Assembly: GCA_003279055.1 (NCBI GenBank)
Contig: QCBP01000012.1
Coordinates: 1 to 33,685, forward strand
Reading direction: 5' to 3'
Source: Prochlorococcus sp. AG-347-I21
GTDB taxonomy: Bacteria > Cyanobacteriota > Cyanobacteriia > PCC-6307 > Cyanobiaceae
DNA length: 33,685 bases
Position 1 is the stretch's first letter. Each line of letters opens with the position of its first letter. The translations under genes were made by a program, and so were the position numbers. The notes under the pieces were generated by a model. The model was not told where the DNA came from, ran no database searches, and worked only from the letters and a program-made list of their open reading frames with translations. Shown in pieces: positions 1 through 9,239 of the stretch.

Positions 1-2068
1 TTGGTTGAATAACTTGTGAAGAAGATGGAGTATTTATTTTTCCTCTTTTGTAGGCGGTAGCCCTATAGTTTTTAATGTTTTCATGCCAACTTAAATTTAA
101 GAAGTCCAAAATTTTTTGGATATGATTGTCAAAATCATCGACTAGATTTTCATACTTAGATGTAAAATAATCCATTTTTAATTTTTCTTCATAATCTATC
201 CACATATTCATAGTCAAATTATAAATTTTTGAAGCTGATTCTATACTACGGAAATTTGCCATTGCAAAGTTGGGCTCAAATGTTTGTTGGAAGCAAGATA
301 AAACTGTGTCGTAAGGATGTCTATGAGTGAATATTATTTTTGATTTTGGGAATAATAAATTTATAAGAGGTAGGCAAACAGTTTGAAAAGGAAATTTATC
401 AATTAGAATTTTTGCGTTTTTATCAGAGGTATTTTTCAGAATCTCAATGTATTTATTTCTCAAAAAATCAAGATCATTCTTATTTAGTTTATGAAGCTGA
501 TCAAGAGAACATTTGAATTTTGTTTTTATAATTTGTTCTACAGAATTAATAATTGGTTTTTCCTCTAAAACATCAATTTCAGGATGGCTTCTTAAAATTG
601 TATCGAGTAAGGTTGTACCTGATCTAGGAAATCCTATTAAAAAAACTGGATTATTTTCATTTATTTTTGATGTTTGGTTATCTATAAAAAAAGTTTTATT
701 ATCTAAATTCTTACGGTACGTATATATGTAATTCAGGAAGATATTTGGATTATAAGCTTCATATTTTAAATTTAGTTGACTTTTCTCAAAACATTGAAAG
801 GCTTCATCATAATTTTCAACTTTTTCCTCAATAAATGCTTTAAACGACCAATAAAGAAGATTTGTATGGTGATCTGTATTCTCTATCCATTCATTTGAAA
901 TTTGGTCAATTGATGTTTTTGCCTTAATGTAATCTTTTTCTCTGAAATAAACTCTTGCTTTGAACATCATTATTTCATTAAAAATACTTTTATTTTCGAT
1001 CTCAGTTTCTATCTTATTTTTTAATTTTTTTATATTGTTAGTCTTTTCGTAAAGTCTAAAAAGATTTGCATATGCATAACCATAGTTTTCTTTTATTTTA
1101 ATTGCATTAAGAAATAATTCTTCAGCCTCTGTTAACTTGTCGAGATCAATCTTAATCACTCCTAAGTTTACATAAGCTAACTCAAATTTTGGATTAAATT
1201 TAATAGCCTTTTCAGTAAATTTTTCTGCCTCATTTAAATTACCCTGCTTTGATAGAAGAGAAGCGAGGTTATTGTAAGCGAGAGAAAAATCTGATTTTAT
1301 TTCAATTGCTTTTCGGTAACAGCTTTCTGCAACCTTGTTATTATTTTTCTTAGATAGAATATTGCCTAAATTATTTAGTGCAGTGGGTGAATTTGGATTT
1401 ATTTTGAGAGCTTTTTTTAAAAATTGTTCTCCTTCATCAATTTTTTCCAATTCATTTAGAACTGCACCAAGATTAATTAGGGCAAAATCATAACTCGGAT
1501 TAATTTCAAGAGCATCTCTAAGGTATTTTTCGGCTTGATTAGGATTCCCTAAATCCTTTAAGACACATCCTAAATTCACTAGATTATTAATATCTTTTGG
1601 GTTTATTTCTAAGCTCTTTCTCAAAAAGAATTCGGCTTTTTTGAAATCACCCTCTGCTACGAATATACTGGCCATGTTTGCATAAGGCCTTAAGTACTTA
1701 GGATTTAATTCTATAGCTCTATGCAATACCTTCTTGGCTATATCATTTCTTCCTTTAAGAATAAGTACATTTGCTAAATTAGAGTATGCTTCAAAGTTGT
1801 TTGGGAATTTCTTTATTGATTCATCAAATAATAAAAGGGCTTTATCAAACTGCTTTTGTTGAGAATAAATGCTACCAAGATTATTAAATACCCTAGGGTC
1901 ATAAATTTTATTTTGAATTAGAAAATTATATTTATCAACTGCTTCTTTGATTTTCCCACTTGAATGTAATGAAAACGCTTGCGATATCAATTGATCTTTT
2001 TGCAGATTATTAACTTTTTTTTTTGTTAAGTTTTTATTATTTTTGTCATTACTGCCAAATCCTTTCAT
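1..2068 (-). CDS. TPR-repeat sulfotransferase, C-terminus off the left edge
   Basis: The frame is open from ATG at 2068 to the window edge, about 689 residues, with the C-terminus missing. After a Lys/Asn-rich start (MKGFGSNDK) come many consecutive 34-residue TPR units, recognisable by recurring NLG and A-x-x-x-NP patterns, up to about residue 350. A second domain follows. It has the PAPS-binding loop PRSGTTLL starting at residue 481 (DNA about 605-628), then IDKFPF and a 3'-phosphate-binding-like stretch THRHPYDTVLS near residue 580. This is the layout of TPR plus Sulfotransfer_3 proteins (tyrosylprotein-sulfotransferase-like), which move sulfate from PAPS to a hydroxyl acceptor. The acceptor cannot be told from sequence. 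The last visible residues, TPSSSQVIQP, are typical of the C-terminal end of such domains, so little is missing. It is divergent from the porin gene at 2423, and a second TPR-sulfotransferase lies at 3624. Confidence 0.85.
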   Translation of the reverse strand, partial: MKGFGSNDKNNKNLTKKKVNNLQKDQLISQAFSLHSSGKIKEAVDKYNFLIQNKIYDPRVFNNLGSIYSQQKQFDKALLLFDESIKKFPNNFEAYSNLANVLILKGRNDIAKKVLHRAIELNPKYLRPYANMASIFVAEGDFKKAEFFLRKSLEINPKDINNLVNLGCVLKDLGNPNQAEKYLRDALEINPSYDFALINLGAVLNELEKIDEGEQFLKKALKINPNSPTALNNLGNILSKKNNNKVAESCYRKAIEIKSDFSLAYNNLASLLSKQGNLNEAEKFTEKAIKFNPKFELAYVNLGVIKIDLDKLTEAEELFLNAIKIKENYGYAYANLFRLYEKTNNIKKLKNKIETEIENKSIFNEIMMFKARVYFREKDYIKAKTSIDQISNEWIENTDHHTNLLYWSFKAFIEEKVENYDEAFQCFEKSQLNLKYEAYNPNIFLNYIYTYRKNLDNKTFFIDNQTSKINENNPVFLIGFPRSGTTLLDTILRSHPEIDVLEEKPIINSVEQIIKTKFKCSLDQLHKLNKNDLDFLRNKYIEILKNTSDKNAKILIDKFPFQTVCLPLINLLFPKSKIIFTHRHPYDTVLSCFQQTFEPNFAMANFRSIESASKIYNLTMNMWIDYEEKLKMDYFTSKYENLVDDFDNHIQKILDFLNLSWHENIKNYRATAYKRGKINTPSSSQVIQP

Positions 2069-2408: not shown

Positions 2409-2417
2409 GTGTGAGGA
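2409..2417 (+). promoter_or_regulatory. Ribosome-binding site with Yfr1-complementary GTGTGAGGA
   Basis: GTGTGAGGA includes the Shine-Dalgarno GAGGA (2413-2417), five bases before the ATG at 2423. All nine bases are complementary to UCCUCACAC, part of the ultraconserved unpaired motif of the cyanobacterial sRNA Yfr1 (ACUCCUCACAC). From memory, Yfr1 was reported to repress two porin mRNAs in Prochlorococcus MED4 by pairing at this kind of site. The site also decides the start: it places translation at 2423 rather than at the in-frame ATG at 2393. The Yfr1 gene itself is not in this window. Confidence 0.7.
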
Positions 2418-2422
2418 AATTT

Positions 2423-3496
2423 ATGAAGCTTTTTAAGAGCTTACTCGTGGCTCCTGCAACATTAGGCTTACTTGCGCCTATGTCTGCATCTGCCAACGAA
2501 GTCACTATTAATGATTTCAACGCTGCAGAAGAAATTGCAGTTACAAATAGCCGTGTTGACGGTTTAGAAACTAGATTCAATGATCTTGAAGCTGGTTCAT
2601 TCTCAGAGACAACTACAGCATCATTTGGTGTAGATTTTCTTGTTGGTGCTACAGACGGAGCAACTTCTGAGGCAACATCATTTAGTTACCAATTCGGTAT
2701 TGGCCTAGAAACTAGCTTTACTGGTGAAGATTCACTAAGCATAGCTATTGATAGTGGTGATGCTGTAGGTGACATTGGTACTGGTACTACTACAGGTTTG
2801 AACTTTGATTCTGGTGGTGGTCCACTAACAGTTGATGGAGTTGCATATACATTCCCATTAGGTGGTGCAACAGTATTAGTTGGTGATCAAACTGATGTTA
2901 GTGCTGTATACTCTGGAGCTTGTGCTTACTCCGCTTTTACTGATTACATGGGTAACTGTGGTACAGGTAATACAGTTGGTCTTGGTGGTAAAGGCGTTAC
3001 TGCTGCAATGTCATACGCTTTTGATAGCGGATTTTCACTAGCTGGTGGTATTTCATCTGAACCAGCACAGATCCTAACTAATGCAGGAACTGATATCTAC
3101 GGTATCGAAGCTGCCTATAGTGCAGATTCTTACGGAGTAGCAGTTGCTTATGCAGACAATGAAGCGTCAACTGCCTGGGGAATCAACGGTTACTATGCGT
3201 TTGATTTCGCTACACTTAGTGTAGGTGTTGAGTCTGTAGATACTGGTACAACAGCTGAAGGTTTCTTTGTTGGTTTAAGTTTCCCTGAGGTTGGAGCTGG
3301 TTCTCTTGACATAGGAATGGGAACAACAGCTAACTTTGCTGATGGTGCTACTGAAACATACATGTATGAAGCTTCATACTCATATCCATTGAATGATGGT
3401 ATGACAATCACTCCTGGTGTGTTCATCACAGAGGGCGCAGGTCCTAGTGATGCAGACGTTACCGGTGTAGCTGTTAAAACTTCATTTAGTTTCTAA
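2423..3496 (+). CDS. Outer-membrane porin, short form without SLH domain (copy 1)
   Basis: A 357-residue secreted beta-barrel protein of the cyanobacterial Som/porin type, expected to form a diffusion channel in the outer membrane. A signal peptide (MKLFKSLLVAPATLGLLAP) ends at a probable SASA|NE cleavage after residue 24. A short linker with a coiled-coil-like piece (RVDGLETRFNDLE) follows, then a Gly/Ala/Ser/Thr-rich barrel with alternating hydrophobic residues, ending in the aromatic C-terminus SFSF expected for barrel assembly. Two cysteines 12 residues apart (ACAYSAFTDYMGNC) could form a loop disulfide. The S-layer-homology domain usual between signal peptide and barrel in larger cyanobacterial porins is absent. 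I chose the ATG at 2423 because it has GAGGA before it and matches the start of the second copy. From TCAGAGAC (2603) onward it is nearly identical to the porin at 5520; the only residue difference there is Pro versus Gly. Confidence 0.88.
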   Translation: MKLFKSLLVAPATLGLLAPMSASANEVTINDFNAAEEIAVTNSRVDGLETRFNDLEAGSFSETTTASFGVDFLVGATDGATSEATSFSYQFGIGLETSFTGEDSLSIAIDSGDAVGDIGTGTTTGLNFDSGGGPLTVDGVAYTFPLGGATVLVGDQTDVSAVYSGACAYSAFTDYMGNCGTGNTVGLGGKGVTAAMSYAFDSGFSLAGGISSEPAQILTNAGTDIYGIEAAYSADSYGVAVAYADNEASTAWGINGYYAFDFATLSVGVESVDTGTTAEGFFVGLSFPEVGAGSLDIGMGTTANFADGATETYMYEASYSYPLNDGMTITPGVFITEGAGPSDADVTGVAVKTSFSF

Positions 3497-3625
3497 TTAA
3501 ATTTACTTAATTATTAATTAAAACTACACACTTAAAAGGCCTGCTTTAGTGGCAGGTCTTTTTTTTTATGAAAGTTAGAATTTAAAAGAATGTATTATTA
3601 ATTCAGAGGTATTATTTCTTTTGAT
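2603..3625 (+). repeat. 1,023-bp direct repeat, copy 1 (porin barrel, terminator, leader)
   Basis: Aligned by eye with 5736-6758 at a constant offset of 3,133 bases and no indels. I count five substitutions: CC/GG at the Pro/Gly codon, one T/C three codons later, and two transitions after the stop codon (one in the 3' region, one in the terminator loop). The copy starts just after the variable N-terminal codons, includes the stop and the terminator, and ends at the second base of the ATG of the sulfotransferase gene at 3624. No inverted ends, target duplications or transposase are present, so it is a product of homologous recombination or duplication rather than an insertion sequence. Confidence 0.95.
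3534..3567 (+). terminator. Rho-independent terminator after porin copy 1
   Basis: GGCCTGC pairs with GCAGGTC around a seven-base loop (TTTAGTG), flanked by AAAA and followed by nine T residues. It starts about 37 bases after the porin stop codon and would isolate the porin transcript from the sulfotransferase gene downstream. Confidence 0.85.
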
Positions 3626-5441
3626 GAAATACGAGACATCAGAAATAAAAAAATATATTCAAATTGCAAAAAAGAAGCATAAAGAAGGAAATTTGAATCA
3701 AGCGAATGAAATCTATAAAAAATTAATAAATCAAAAAATTTATACATTTGATTTACTTATTTCATATGGAATTTTTAATCGAGAGATTAATAATCTAGAA
3801 ATTGCTAAAAAGTTATTTATTTTGTCTATCAGGAAATACCCTTCAATAGTTCAACCATACTTACTATTAGCTGAAATCTTGAGAAATGAGAATAATATTA
3901 ATGATGCTTTGAAAACATTGTATGCCGCAAAAAAAATTGAAAAATCTAATTCTGATATTAACTACAATTTATCAATTATTTATAAAACTATAAAATCATT
4001 TAAAGAAGCAATAATATCTATTGACCTTGCTATAAAGCAAAAGCCTAAAAATCAAATATACAAAATTTTAAAAGCCGATATTCTTACTGATTTGTTTCAA
4101 AATGAAGAGGCAAAAGAGTTATTGACAAATTTAACATTACCAAAAAGTAGCTTTTTATATTTTCAGAGGGAAATTTTAATTTCAAAAATATTTATTAATC
4201 AAAACAAATATATAAAGGCAGAAAAGGTTCTTCTTAAATTAAAAAAAATTTTTAGTAAGGAAAAAATTCTATATCTTAATTTGAGTGATCTTTATTTCAA
4301 AAATAAAGAATTAGAGAAGGGAATTTTAATTTTAAAGGAAGGAATTAATAAATTCCCAAACTTTATCCCATTGATGTTTAATTTAGGGGTAATGTATAGG
4401 AATTTTGGGTTACTTGAATTATCTATAAAGACTCATATTGAAATCCTTTTAAAGGATCAATTTAATTCAAATAGTTTTTATGAATTATCAACTATGTATG
4501 ATTTCTCAAATCATAGTGACATATTGAAAAAAATACTAAATATTGAGATAGAAAATCTCTCCCAAGTTGAAAAAATATATATAAGTTTTTCAAAAGCTAA
4601 CCTCTTTCATTTAAAAAAAGATTTCGAAAAAAGTGCTCATTTTCTTAAAATTGCTAATGAAGAAAAACTAAAACTCCAACCATCTGATTTGAAAAGTAAA
4701 CTTAATAGAGGTCAATACTATAGAAATTTGGAAATAGAAAAAATACACAATTTGGACAATAAAATTGATAGTAATCGATATCTATTTATTGTTGGCATGC
4801 CAAGGTGCGGCAGTACATTGCTGGAGAGCATTTTGAGTATTAATCCAGAAGTTAAGGATATGGGAGAGGTTTTTTATTTAGAGGAATCTCTTCTAAAAAC
4901 CAATAATTTTTTGAATGTTAATAAACTTTATGAAGAAAAAGTTATGCTTATAGGTTCTCAAAAAAAAATTTATACAGATAAAAATTTGTTTAATTTTTTA
5001 TATTGTCCAATTATTTATAATTATTTCCCTAATGCAAAAATTATTTATTGTAGAAGGAATCCACTTGATAATATCCTTTCCATTTACAGGACTAATTTTT
5101 TAAATCAAAGTTTTTCTAGCTCATTAAAGGATATTGCTGAACTGTATTCATATCATTTGGAACTTATGGATGAGTACAAAAAAAGATTTAGTTCAATTAT
5201 TTATAGTTATGATCACGATAAGGTAATTCAAAACCCTAAGGAAAATATTCGAAGCTTAATAAATTGGCTTGAATGGGAATGGAATGATAAATATCTCTCA
5301 CCGCAAAAAAGTAAAAGAAGTGTATTTACTGCAAGTAGTGCTCAGGTAAGGCAAAAAATTAATTCTAATTCTTCATTTTATTGGAAAAAATATGAGGATT
5401 TATTAAAACCAATTAGTAAGCAATTTCTTACGTGCAATTAG
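3624..5441 (+). CDS. TPR-repeat sulfotransferase between the two porin genes
   Basis: A 605-residue, Lys/Ile/Asn-rich protein. Residues 1 to about 380 are degenerate TPR helix pairs (for example YIQIAKKKHKEGNLNQANEIY and later copies). A sulfotransferase domain follows with the PAPS-binding loop MPRCGSTLLESIL (Pro near residue 393), then YTDKNLFNF and CRRNPLDNILSIYR, the expected 3'-phosphate-binding segment. It should sulfate a hydroxyl-bearing acceptor; a role on surface glycans or envelope proteins is inference from its porin neighbours. The start is uncertain by one codon (TTG 3621 or ATG 3624); AGAGG at 3605-3609 is the only Shine-Dalgarno-like sequence. The leader and the first two bases of the ATG belong to the 1-kb repeat. 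It shares domain plan with the gene at 1-2068 but is clearly diverged and has fewer clean TPRs. Confidence 0.85.
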   Translation: MKYETSEIKKYIQIAKKKHKEGNLNQANEIYKKLINQKIYTFDLLISYGIFNREINNLEIAKKLFILSIRKYPSIVQPYLLLAEILRNENNINDALKTLYAAKKIEKSNSDINYNLSIIYKTIKSFKEAIISIDLAIKQKPKNQIYKILKADILTDLFQNEEAKELLTNLTLPKSSFLYFQREILISKIFINQNKYIKAEKVLLKLKKIFSKEKILYLNLSDLYFKNKELEKGILILKEGINKFPNFIPLMFNLGVMYRNFGLLELSIKTHIEILLKDQFNSNSFYELSTMYDFSNHSDILKKILNIEIENLSQVEKIYISFSKANLFHLKKDFEKSAHFLKIANEEKLKLQPSDLKSKLNRGQYYRNLEIEKIHNLDNKIDSNRYLFIVGMPRCGSTLLESILSINPEVKDMGEVFYLEESLLKTNNFLNVNKLYEEKVMLIGSQKKIYTDKNLFNFLYCPIIYNYFPNAKIIYCRRNPLDNILSIYRTNFLNQSFSSSLKDIAELYSYHLELMDEYKKRFSSIIYSYDHDKVIQNPKENIRSLINWLEWEWNDKYLSPQKSKRSVFTASSAQVRQKINSNSSFYWKKYEDLLKPISKQFLTCN

Positions 5442-5460
5442 ATAAATGGCTTACTAGCTT

Positions 5461-5488
5461 TTGCAATTTATTTATATTGGACTAAAAT
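5461..5488 (+). promoter_or_regulatory. Candidate promoter of porin copy 2 (TTGCAA-16-TAAAAT)
   Basis: TTGCAA (5461-5466) and TAAAAT (5483-5488) lie 16 bases apart in the 78-base gap after the sulfotransferase stop codon. Transcription would begin near 5495, leaving a leader of about 25 bases, like the leader of copy 1. This indicates that the second porin has its own promoter. Confidence 0.45.
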
Positions 5489-5504
5489 GAGAAAGTTTAA
5501 TTCT

Positions 5505-5513
5505 GTGTGAGGA
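5505..5513 (+). promoter_or_regulatory. Ribosome-binding site with Yfr1-complementary GTGTGAGGA (copy 2)
   Basis: The same nine-base GTGTGAGGA found before porin copy 1, here seven bases before the ATG at 5520. It lies outside the 1-kb repeat, and most of the sequence around it differs from copy 1, so its preservation suggests selection. It includes the Shine-Dalgarno GAGGA and is complementary to the Yfr1 motif UCCUCACAC. Confidence 0.7.
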
Positions 5514-5519
5514 ATTTTT

Positions 5520-6629
5520 ATGAAATTATTCCAAAAATTGCTGGTAGCTCCAGCAGCTATTGGTCTTATTGCTCCATTATCAGCTACTGCCTCTGAAGTT
5601 AATTTTGATGCTATTTCAAATTACTCTAATAATTTAGAGATAGATGCAAATTCATTTAACCAAAAATCTGCAAATAATAACCTAATCGCTGGTGGAGAAG
5701 GTTTAGTAGATAGCAGTGAAACTATTGGAGGATTTTCAGAGACAACTACAGCATCATTTGGTGTAGATTTTCTTGTTGGTGCTACAGACGGAGCAACTTC
5801 TGAGGCAACATCATTTAGTTACCAATTCGGTATTGGCCTAGAAACTAGCTTTACTGGTGAAGATTCACTAAGCATAGCTATTGATAGTGGTGATGCTGTA
5901 GGTGACATTGGTACTGGTACTACTACAGGTTTGAACTTTGATTCTGGTGGTGGTGGACTAACAGTCGATGGAGTTGCATATACATTCCCATTAGGTGGTG
6001 CAACAGTATTAGTTGGTGATCAAACTGATGTTAGTGCTGTATACTCTGGAGCTTGTGCTTACTCCGCTTTTACTGATTACATGGGTAACTGTGGTACAGG
6101 TAATACAGTTGGTCTTGGTGGTAAAGGCGTTACTGCTGCAATGTCATACGCTTTTGATAGCGGATTTTCACTAGCTGGTGGTATTTCATCTGAACCAGCA
6201 CAGATCCTAACTAATGCAGGAACTGATATCTACGGTATCGAAGCTGCCTATAGTGCAGATTCTTACGGAGTAGCAGTTGCTTATGCAGACAATGAAGCGT
6301 CAACTGCCTGGGGAATCAACGGTTACTATGCGTTTGATTTCGCTACACTTAGTGTAGGTGTTGAGTCTGTAGATACTGGTACAACAGCTGAAGGTTTCTT
6401 TGTTGGTTTAAGTTTCCCTGAGGTTGGAGCTGGTTCTCTTGACATAGGAATGGGAACAACAGCTAACTTTGCTGATGGTGCTACTGAAACATACATGTAT
6501 GAAGCTTCATACTCATATCCATTGAATGATGGTATGACAATCACTCCTGGTGTGTTCATCACAGAGGGCGCAGGTCCTAGTGATGCAGACGTTACCGGTG
6601 TAGCTGTTAAAACTTCATTTAGTTTCTAA
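5520..6629 (+). CDS. Outer-membrane porin, short form without SLH domain (copy 2)
   Basis: A 369-residue secreted beta-barrel porin. The signal peptide (MKLFQKLLVAPAAIGLIAP) ends at a probable SATA|SE cleavage after residue 24. An Asn/Ser-rich linker of about 48 residues, unrelated to the linker of copy 1, leads into the barrel, which from FSETTTASFG to SFSF differs from copy 1 by a single Gly for Pro. The retained N-terminal signal peptides differ at several positions, so the sharp switch to identity marks a recombination boundary rather than a recent whole-gene duplication. It has its own promoter-like sequence, a GAGGA ribosome-binding site and its own terminator. Function: outer-membrane channel; the solute is unknown. 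No SLH anchor is present, so attachment to the cell wall, if any, must use the short linker. Confidence 0.88.
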   Translation: MKLFQKLLVAPAAIGLIAPLSATASEVNFDAISNYSNNLEIDANSFNQKSANNNLIAGGEGLVDSSETIGGFSETTTASFGVDFLVGATDGATSEATSFSYQFGIGLETSFTGEDSLSIAIDSGDAVGDIGTGTTTGLNFDSGGGGLTVDGVAYTFPLGGATVLVGDQTDVSAVYSGACAYSAFTDYMGNCGTGNTVGLGGKGVTAAMSYAFDSGFSLAGGISSEPAQILTNAGTDIYGIEAAYSADSYGVAVAYADNEASTAWGINGYYAFDFATLSVGVESVDTGTTAEGFFVGLSFPEVGAGSLDIGMGTTANFADGATETYMYEASYSYPLNDGMTITPGVFITEGAGPSDADVTGVAVKTSFSF

Positions 6630-6758
6630 TTAAATTTACTTAATTATTAATTGAAACTACACACTTAAAAGGCCTGCTTTAGTAGCAGGTCTTTTTTTTT
6701 ATGAAAGTTAGAATTTAAAAGAATGTATTATTAATTCAGAGGTATTATTTCTTTTGAT
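5736..6758 (+). repeat. 1,023-bp direct repeat, copy 2
   Basis: Second copy of 2603-3625 in the same orientation. It ends in TTGAT (6754-6758) where copy 1 continues into the sulfotransferase ATG; here the next base is A, giving ATA, and the downstream sequence is unrelated. Copy 2 therefore carries a leader, including AGAGG and TATTAT, that no longer belongs to a sulfotransferase gene. Confidence 0.95.
6667..6700 (+). terminator. Rho-independent terminator after porin copy 2
   Basis: Same GGCCTGC/GCAGGTC stem and nine-T tail as the copy-1 terminator. The only change is G to A in the loop, which does not affect pairing. Confidence 0.85.
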
Positions 6759-6789: not shown

Positions 6790-6936
6790 ATGCCACCTAT
6801 ATTTAAATGCCTAATTTGTAGGAAAGATATTGAAAGATCTACTAAAACATTTTGGATTAAAAAAGGCCACTTATTATGTTCTACTTGCTTAGATAAAATT
6901 GATATAGACAAAAAAAATCTTGAAAAACAAGATTAA
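6790..6936 (+). CDS. Small zinc-ribbon-like CxxC protein
   Basis: A 48-residue frame from ATG to TAA. It contains two cysteine pairs, KCLIC near residues 7-10 and LCSTC near residues 30-33, separated by about 20 residues, the spacing of a small zinc ribbon. The C-terminus is Lys/Asp/Asn-rich. No clear Shine-Dalgarno is visible, which is common in this genome. It lies directly behind the second 1-kb repeat, so the duplicated leader (TATTAT at 6726-6731) could drive it. Tiny Zn-ribbon proteins of unknown role are common in picocyanobacteria. I do not recognise a named family; the ordered cysteines make a real gene more likely than a chance frame. Confidence 0.6.
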   Translation: MPPIFKCLICRKDIERSTKTFWIKKGHLLCSTCLDKIDIDKKNLEKQD

Positions 6937-7156: not shown

Positions 7157-7264
7157 TTAGAACCATCCAGGAATTATTTGGCCTGTAGTTACATATGCAC
7201 CTACTGCTGCAACGAAACCTAGCATTGCTGCCCAACCATTAAAACGTTCTGCTTCTGGAGTCAT
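7157..7264 (-). CDS. hli: High-light-inducible protein (Hli/SCP family)
   Basis: A 35-residue protein, MTPEAERFNGWAAMLGF followed by VAAVGAYVTTGQIIPGWF. It has the chlorophyll-binding ExxNGWxAM core of the single-helix Hli/small CAB-like proteins and their typical TGQIIPG end. These thylakoid proteins bind chlorophyll and carotenoid and protect photosystem II assembly and repair under excess light. It is one of the short Hli forms, essentially one transmembrane helix with little N-terminal extension. It is a single gene between the porin region and tRNA-Lys, transcribed leftward, with an HLR1-like operator over its promoter. The ATG at 7264 is the only ATG that gives the family N-terminus. 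Confidence 0.93.
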   Translation of the reverse strand: MTPEAERFNGWAAMLGFVAAVGAYVTTGQIIPGWF

Positions 7265-7320: not shown

Positions 7321-7454
7321 GTAATCTGTAGTTTTTTTTTTAGATTTCAATATTTACCTGAAAAGCTCAATTAAATTTGCATTAATGTGACATAAATGTG
7401 TTAGTTTTTTGGCGTATTTTTTCAAAAAAATATAAACTCAATCAATAAATGATG

Positions 7455-7526
7455 TGGGTCGCCTGAGATTCGAACTCAGGACCAGCCGGTTAAAAGCCGG
7501 ATGCTCTACCGCTGAGCTAGCGACCC
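7455..7526 (-). tRNA. trnK: tRNA-Lys (anticodon UUU)
   Basis: A 72-base cloverleaf. The acceptor stem is GGGTCGC/GCGACCC, the D stem GCTC/GAGC, the anticodon loop CTTTTAA with anticodon TTT, and the T arm CTGAG-TTCGAAT-CTCAG, with discriminator base A. CCA is not encoded. The outermost anticodon-stem pair is T-C and unpaired; the other four pairs are good. Confidence 0.96.
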
Positions 7527-7826: not shown

Positions 7827-9239
7827 TTGATAGATAAAGAAGTAATAGTTATTGGGGCTGGTCTAGCAGGATCTGAAGCCGCTTGGCAAGTAGCCAACGC
7901 TGGTATACCAGTCAAATTAGTTGAAATGAGACCTTTCAAGTCAACTCCAGCTCACCATACGGGTGAATTCGGAGAGTTGGTTTGCAGTAATAGTTTTGGG
8001 GCTTTAAGTTCAGATAGAGCTGCTGGTTTATTGCAAAAAGAACTAAGATTTTTTAATTCATTGATAGTTCAAACAGCAGATAAATTTTCCGTACCAGCTG
8101 GAGGCGCATTAGCCGTTGATAGATCCAAATTTAGTAATGCTCTTACTGAAGAATTATCTAATCATCCTTTAATCGAAATAAAGAGATTTGAACAATTAGA
8201 TCTCCCAGATAAAGATAATATAACCATTCTCGCAACTGGTCCACTCACGTCAGATGAATTGGCCAATAAAATTCAATTATTTACAGGTATAGGTGCCTGT
8301 CATTTTTTTGACGCTGCTAGTCCAATAATTTATGGTGATACTCTTGATAAAGAGATTGTTTTTAAAGCTAGCAGATATGACAAAGGAGATCCGGCTTATC
8401 TAAATTGTCCTTTAGATAAGAATGAATACATAAATTTTAGGAATGAATTAATTCAAGGCGAGCAGGCTAACTTAAAAGACTTTGATAAAGAATCTTCAAA
8501 TTTCTTTGAAGCTTGTTTGCCAATAGAAGAAATTGCTAGAAGAGGAGTTGACACAATGAGATACGGACCATTGAAATCTATAGGTTTGTGGAATCCGAAA
8601 TGGGGAGATTTATTTGATCGAGAAAATAGATTAAAAAAACGGCCTCATGCAATAGTCCAATTAAGGATGGAAGATCTCGAGGGTAAGTTACTTAATATGG
8701 TAGGTTTTCAAACCAACTTGAAATGGTCAGAACAAAAGCGAATTTTTAGGATGATTCCTGGCTTAGAGAAAGCTGAATTTGTACGTTTTGGAGTAATGCA
8801 TAGAAATACTTTTCTAGAATCTCCTAAATTACTTTTGCCCACATTGCAATTTATCAAAAGAGAAACCCTTTTGGCAGCGGGGCAGATTACAGGTACTGAA
8901 GGTTATGCCCCCGCCGCTGCGGGTGGATTACTTGCAGGAATAAATGCATCCTTATTAGCTATGAGTAAAAACCCTGTAACTTTTCCTGATGAATCAATGA
9001 TTGGTTCTTTAATAAATTTCATTAGTAATAGAAATCAAATACTTTCTAATCAGAAAAAAAATAAATTCCAGCCAATGCCTGCTTCATTTGGTCTAGTCCC
9101 GGAACTTACTAAAAGAATCAAAGATAAAAAATTAAGATATAAAGCTTATCAAGAAAGATCTACAGAAGCTTTAAAAGGGTTTAAAAAAATTTTAGATTCT
9201 AGTTTTGAAAAAGATCACTTAATTATCAAAATTAACTAA
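7827..9239 (+). CDS. trmFO: tRNA m5U54 methyltransferase, folate/FAD dependent (TrmFO)
   Basis: A 470-residue flavoprotein that methylates U54 in the T loop of tRNAs using methylene-tetrahydrofolate and reduced FAD. The N-terminus has the dinucleotide-binding fold [15 protein letters not shown]. The conserved [11 protein letters not shown] and [22 protein letters not shown] blocks contain the two family cysteines, and the C-terminal [16 protein letters not shown] block is also typical. Length is normal for the family (about 435-470). The start is TTG at 7827, six bases after the psbY stop; no upstream ATG is in frame before a stop. It was formerly called Gid. It is followed by crtH after 23 bases. 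Confidence 0.95.

Follow-up and report, generated by a model that had tools for sequence, protein, structure and literature searches.

Neighbouring porin genes of Prochlorococcus share a near-identical barrel, very probably through recurrent recombination

Prochlorococcus is among the most abundant photosynthetic organisms of the sea. One of its genomes carries two neighbouring porin genes that are almost identical over the barrel and distinct at their 5' ends, and the question raised by this locus is how the two came to share one barrel. The stretch of DNA analysed here (the window) is 33,685 nt of contig C12 of Prochlorococcus sp. AG-347-I21 (G000 in our numbering), a 40-contig draft that is 96.8% complete. 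The answer that we hold with high confidence is that recombination homogenises the barrel and terminator of neighbouring porins (concerted evolution), with occasional loss of a unit. The features of the window concerned are:

2..2068, minus strand: upstream of porin 1, a TPR-sulfotransferase gene that loses its 3' end at the contig boundary (689 aa read)
2409..2417, plus strand: GTGTGAGGA, complement of the Yfr1 core, 14 nt before porin 1
2423..3496, plus strand: porin 1, Som/OprB-like, 357 aa
2423..2602, plus strand: porin-1-specific signal peptide and linker, outside the repeat
2603..3625, plus strand: repeat copy A, with barrel, terminator and a downstream stretch reaching the sulfotransferase start
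3535..3568, plus strand: terminator-like hairpin and T-run inside copy A, found by eye (twin at about 6668-6701)
3624..5441, plus strand: TPR-sulfotransferase spacer gene, with Sulfotransfer_3 and TPR matches
5505..5513, plus strand: GTGTGAGGA, complement of the Yfr1 core, 15 nt before porin 2
5520..6629, plus strand: porin 2, 369 aa
5520..5735, plus strand: porin-2-specific signal peptide and linker, outside the repeat
5736..6758, plus strand: repeat copy B, with barrel, terminator and downstream stretch
6790..6936, plus strand: small Cys-rich ORF, 48 aa, shared right flank
7157..7264, minus strand: ORF of 35 aa that we take to be hli-like, shared right flank (weak PF00504 match below the cut-off)
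7454..7526, minus strand: tRNA-Lys
7827..9239, plus strand: gene that we take to be trmFO-like, the anchor for locus comparison

Self-comparison of the window gave a 1,023-bp direct repeat (2603-3625 against 5736-6758) with exactly five mismatches at an offset of 3,133, reproducing the coordinates, the count of substitutions and the offset of a preliminary description of this DNA. The mismatches lie at 2822, 2823 and 2833 (barrel) and at 3520 and 3551 (3' untranslated) of copy A; the three clustered within 12 bases (2822-2833) amount to one Pro/Gly change and possibly reflect a tiny conversion or a multi-base mutation. Identity collapses abruptly at 2602 and 3626, and a DNA search of the same genome found no third copy of the repeat. 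Each copy consists of the barrel half of a porin gene and a terminator-like hairpin. As had been described, the copies enclose the sulfotransferase gene (3624-5441) and the N-terminus of porin 2; both porins are open frames (357 and 369 aa) with differing N-termini and leaders. The RecBCD and RecR reported for the window are likewise present, as a RecR gene and helicase/nuclease genes like those for RecB, RecC and RecD (two of these names, RecB and RecD, are presumed from Pfam domains).

Porin 1 scores below the curated family cut-offs (PF04966, 21.8 against 22.9 bits; NF033921, 70.3 against 100), and we therefore call it only Som/OprB-like. Its structural model is a porin-type beta-barrel in which we counted 16 strands among the elements listed (mean pLDDT 77, and below 50 for residues 1-60), the first strand lying at residue 63; the best PDB matches are general porins, with OprB (4gey) at rank 20. 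With the two membrane sides of this model set by the convention of a periplasmic N-terminus, mean pairwise identity among 48 porin-1 proteins falls from 0.92 in the signal peptide and 0.87 in the linker to 0.74 in the periplasmic turns, 0.60 in the strands and 0.41 in the predicted extracellular loops, the most variable part, where most of the length variation is also found. Fourfold sites of the window barrel (2609-3493) have about 6% G+C, against 13-22% in six other window genes; this is strong codon bias, as expected for a highly expressed gene. We rejected GC-biased conversion as a contributor, since the homogenised barrels average 5% GC at fourfold sites, below those six genes.

For comparison we used 80 loci anchored on the trmFO-like gene and 40 stretches from other genomes of the genus. 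In relatives too the locus sits upstream of the small Cys-rich ORF, the hli-like ORF and trmFO, and it occurs in three forms: two porins with a sulfotransferase gene between them, two porins about 160 nt apart, and one porin. Both one-unit and two-unit relatives, for which the preliminary description had suggested looking, thus exist. The set yielded 55 complete non-redundant pairs (63 minus eight duplicates); L001, L002 and L083-L086 lie outside the pair counts, L109, L110, L112, L115 and L117 have no anchor gene, and L099 and L125 are cut. Beyond the genus, long porin matches in 57 genomes of other genera were at most 38% identical among the matches listed. A third porin was looked for in L092 and L096, which have a long gap before hli, and none was found. 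In L034 (7360-8442) and L080 (5735-6882) one porin is split into two frames near the junction of N-terminus and barrel and the other copy is intact; either true loss or sequencing error would account for the split.

Near-identity of the two barrels proved to be general. The barrels do not differ by a single nucleotide in 34 of the 55 pairs (over 855-972 nt) and differ by one to six in 13 more, so that 47 pairs have six differences or fewer, 36 in sum or about 0.8 per pair. The other eight are patchy (L009, L037 and L067, with 24-102 differences and partial tracts) or diverged (L092, L096, L107, L113 and L114, with 263-484). In these five diverged pairs the porins are adjacent, at this locus or one like it; L096, L107 and L113 fall in a deep clade of the trmFO tree that also holds the homogenised pairs L093 (six differences) and L097 (none).

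The 5' ends behave otherwise. N-terminal amino acid identity between genomes is 84% for porin 1 with porin 1 and 54% for porin 2 with porin 2; the two porins of a single genome share 48% in this part. In the barrel, by contrast, the two copies in a genome have a mean identity of 95% (median 100%), and the porin-1 proteins of different genomes have 54%. A tree of N-termini has one same-genome cherry and three changes of position label; a tree of barrels has same-genome cherries for 50 of 55 genomes and 52 changes of label. The paralogue in the same genome is the closest barrel in 50 of 55, that is, paralogues are more alike within than between genomes, as in concerted evolution. Six comparisons of close genomes make the same point: from one genome to the other the porin-1 barrels differ at 29-75 nt, and the two barrels inside each genome at 0-1. 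The two porin positions are older than the identity of the copies, as seen from N-termini sorted by position and from the shared right flank.

The edges of the shared segment are well defined. In the 39 pairs whose exact tract reaches at least 900 nt, the tract begins in porin 1 between codons 44 and 82 (median 59) and extends 36-87 nt (median 65) beyond the stop codon; the repeat of the window runs farther, to 129 nt beyond it (3496 to 3625). Set against the first strand at residue 63, the tract start implies that the homogenised unit is the barrel with its terminator stretch. A special recombination site at the tract edges is not needed, because these edges coincide with the ends of homology. 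If conversion and mutation are in balance, 0.8 differences per pair would mean that copying of the whole tract is about as frequent as one mutation per pair, an estimate made from the 47 near-identical pairs with the eight diverged or patchy ones excluded.

Between lineages the locus turns over. Loci L030 and L101 differ by 2.6% in trmFO and 5% in the porin-1 N-terminus, against 52% in the barrel and 61% in the porin-2 N-terminus; they also differ in spacer class, and identity drops near the barrel start, an edge seen in coarse identity profiles. These two close relatives, like L020 and L022, thus have different content at one locus, as in replacement islands. L020 has upstream a glycosyltransferase-like gene and an RTX-repeat gene. 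On a trmFO tree of 66 clean loci, the three content classes (30, 24 and 12 loci) require 27 changes against 28.8 when shuffled, and 54 of 200 shuffles were as low. This tree is a repeat run restricted to 12 clean single loci; a first tree of 76 loci (34 changes against 35.7 shuffled) had included 22 single-porin rows, eight of them truncated or broken pairs (L003, L006, L024, L034, L048, L055, L069 and L080), one a duplicate (L106) and one from the deep clade with ambiguous flanks (L124). Loci that are farther apart in trmFO tend only weakly to be farther apart in the barrel (rank correlation 0.29), and recombination can itself blur a single-gene tree such as that of trmFO.

The spacer gene is optional and replaceable. 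We rejected the sulfotransferase as the reason for the repeat, since in 24 of the 66 clean loci it is absent and about 160 nt separate the two porins; the same-strand spacer genes of two-porin loci are 40-81% identical to that of the window. The second TPR-sulfotransferase gene, on the other strand upstream of porin 1 (2-2068), recurs in one group of related loci.

The preliminary description had predicted that one crossover would remove a unit and leave a single in-frame porin. Locus L073, with one porin, is of this form, and its sister with full support in the trmFO tree, L079, has two porins and a sulfotransferase gene. The two are collinear on both sides (L073 1-3888 with L079 1580-5466, and L073 2904-10882 with L079 7613-15590, each at 94%), L073 being without one unit of about 3,130 bp. 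We did not find an orthologue of the spacer gene in the L073 genome (G268), whose sulfotransferase matches are at most 34% identical and all on one contig, at coordinates that fit the upstream gene. This assembly keeps contigs down to 2,091 bp, and loss of a piece of about 2.1 kb from it is therefore unlikely. The main clade has 12 complete loci with a single porin (L013, L027, L031, L035, L043, L053, L065, L073, L088, L094, L098 and L103), and all of them likewise have an upstream flank that fits porin 1 better and a downstream flank that fits porin 2 better, with weaker matches (0.76 and 0.71) in L094, the one single-contig case; draft single-porin loci may in part be collapsed repeats. A search for the spacer gene in 14 single-porin genomes (those of the 12 loci, of a duplicate of L065 and of the truncated L003) gave no match in eight and matches of 22-42% in six. 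Those of 41-42%, in the genomes of L031, L053 and L094, lie on contigs longer than the dropped unit or far from the locus, and could be distant sulfotransferases elsewhere, because same-strand spacer genes go down to the same range of identity to the window's.

A possible objection to all of this, already raised in the preliminary description, is that assemblers collapsed similar but non-identical barrels into one sequence used twice. Most loci come from short-read drafts, exact identity is very common, and the repeat is a frequent place for contigs to stop. Among the 40 anchored loci that are cut off by a contig end at most 10 kb upstream of trmFO, 21 stop inside a 1.45-kb interval around repeat 2 (p 2e-8 when compared with a uniform spread of ends). 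Of the 15 listed genus genomes made up of 2-6 contigs, 13 have a porin match at most about 100 nt from a contig end, though not necessarily one at this locus (G002-G006, G008, G009, G011, G027-G030 and G032; the other two are G007, with one porin at the locus, and G090, with a diverged pair). These breaks themselves point to near-identity, however. Eleven genomes are single contigs; eight have a complete pair, with barrel differences of 0 (G012, G019, G022 and G044), 2 (G001), 6 (G033), 263 (G031) and 482 (G023). One more (G043) has one porin, and G024 and G026, which lack the anchor gene in the stretch read and have a porin frame that is broken or masked, enter no count. Pairs with 0-6 differences thus make up six of these eight, four of them with none, and two are diverged. 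Diverged pairs, moreover, were assembled as diverged, which argues against a blanket collapse, and the window's own copies carry five spread mismatches. The 34 zeros may be inflated, most loci being short-read single-cell drafts in which an assembler can force exact identity, but such inflation does not explain the overall pattern. The single-contig genomes thus answer the worry for the pattern in the genus and not specifically for this genome; artefact as the explanation has, in our judgement, a very small chance of being right.

Other explanations grant that the copies are real. Selection alone, for dosage, might keep two equal barrels with no recombination, and the MED4 homologues are among the highly expressed genes of that strain (PMC3898218); yet silent sites are identical as well in the 34 pairs without differences, and the barrels of close genomes differ by tens of nucleotides. 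Copying accounts for silent-site identity and selection for one protein does not, so that selection as the sole cause is refuted and we give it practically no weight. It is also improbable in a high degree that each lineage has lost one porin and freshly duplicated the other in tandem. Single-porin loci do exist, and in L097 and L041 nearly the same N-terminus stands on both copies, so that these two may be fresh duplications or longer conversions and repeated fresh duplication could there mimic conversion; against this, N-termini and leaders sort by position (the three changes above), unlike the products of fresh whole-gene duplication, and L067, L037 and L009 have partial tracts. The preliminary description saw the repeat as kept so that a porin-sulfotransferase unit can excise and amplify. 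The one-unit form of L073 speaks for this, as does the scatter of locus content over the trmFO tree, but such scatter can also arise from replacement between lineages, many pairs have no gene in the spacer, and among 101 loci with porin frames none has more than two full-length porins, so that the predicted amplification was not borne out. A special excisable module is accordingly unlikely, although loss of a unit by one crossover stands; what mainly happens at this two-porin locus, which is found again and again across the genus, is homogenisation.

On this reading, homogenisation by recombination, the repeat is the common barrel-plus-terminator half of two Som/OprB-like porin genes, which stand next to each other at one locus across much of the genus. 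Gene conversion between the copies and, now and then, an unequal crossover would by homologous recombination repeatedly overwrite one barrel with the other, leaving the barrels of a genome nearly identical, silent sites included, and both 5' ends (leader with Yfr1 motif, signal peptide and linker), being outside the homologous stretch, would stay distinct. Between lineages, replacement of the locus sets in at the barrel, and it is the loops predicted to be extracellular that diversify fastest. The same repeat permits loss of a unit (one barrel, the spacer gene and the porin-2 N-terminus) to leave a single in-frame porin. Sequence comparison provides the identity pattern, the tract edges, the variability of the loops, the turnover of content and the sister lineage without one unit; that the agent is RecA-type recombination, that copying is more frequent than crossover and that selection acts on surface loops is what we infer from them.

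The 5' ends that are kept apart have one element in common. The motif GTGTGAGGA stands 13-16 nt before the start codon of the porin genes and is perfect in 54 of 55 porin-1 and 52 of 55 porin-2 leaders, with one mismatch in the rest; in a shuffle control, 4 of 2200 came within one mismatch. We found Yfr1 in the window's own genome, and it contains TCCTCACAC. Yfr1 is reported to repress a MED4 homologue of these porins (PMC6778093), and the window porins, with the complement of the Yfr1 core before both starts, are candidate targets. Both motifs of the window lie outside the repeat, and barrel copying therefore leaves them untouched.

Several known systems resemble this one in part. In Helicobacter pylori the 3' segments of the outer-membrane paralogues babA/babB and homA/homB are homogenised within a strain, with the 5' segments kept apart or diverging and the copies varying in number and place (PMC3960876). 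The porins have the same arrangement of distinct 5' end and homogenised 3' part; the H. pylori genes, however, are adhesins, whereas the present genes belong to a free-living marine cyanobacterium and encode porins; they are adjacent, with almost all of the barrel in common, a replaceable spacer gene and an sRNA target motif on both copies. MED4 also has a porin pair with Yfr1 targeting, PMM1119/PMM1121 (som), which is said to have arisen by gene duplication (PMC6778093), and the passages on its regulation and expression do not speak of deletion, of diversity among strains or of barrels that are identical. In aquatic prokaryotes, replacement flexible genomic islands place different surface genes at one site in close relatives, with exchange through homologous recombination proposed (PMC4033161); unlike those, the segment here holds an internal direct repeat homogenised within each genome. 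Long-lasting concerted evolution has been described for psbA, psbD and other paralogues at conserved positions that are more alike within than between genomes (PMC6053082); those are core photosynthesis and metabolic genes, whereas the porin barrel is highly diverse between genomes. No report of this porin pattern in Prochlorococcus appeared by title or abstract start among the matches listed, in a search that covers few subscription journals, and none of the listed papers on phage receptors identifies these porins, by title or abstract start, as receptors of cyanophages. Homogenised 3' parts and replacement of surface islands were thus known before, and the Prochlorococcus porin case appears new within the literature searched.

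Near-identity within a cell together with hypervariability between strains suggests selection on exposed loops combined with very frequent recombination between neighbours. One tentative idea, which we think possible and rather doubtful, is that the locus is a device for lockstep change: a phage or grazer could use either copy, so that a change of surface would help only if both barrels changed, and copying would update both while keeping the 5' ends and allowing a drop to one porin without a broken gene. The repeat probably explains why many genomes of the genus that are nearly closed have their breaks at porin genes, and porin copy number and sequence in short-read assemblies need careful reading. 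For the biology of Prochlorococcus, the locus offers a natural measure of gene conversion, and its barrels are a candidate surface target for phages or grazers.
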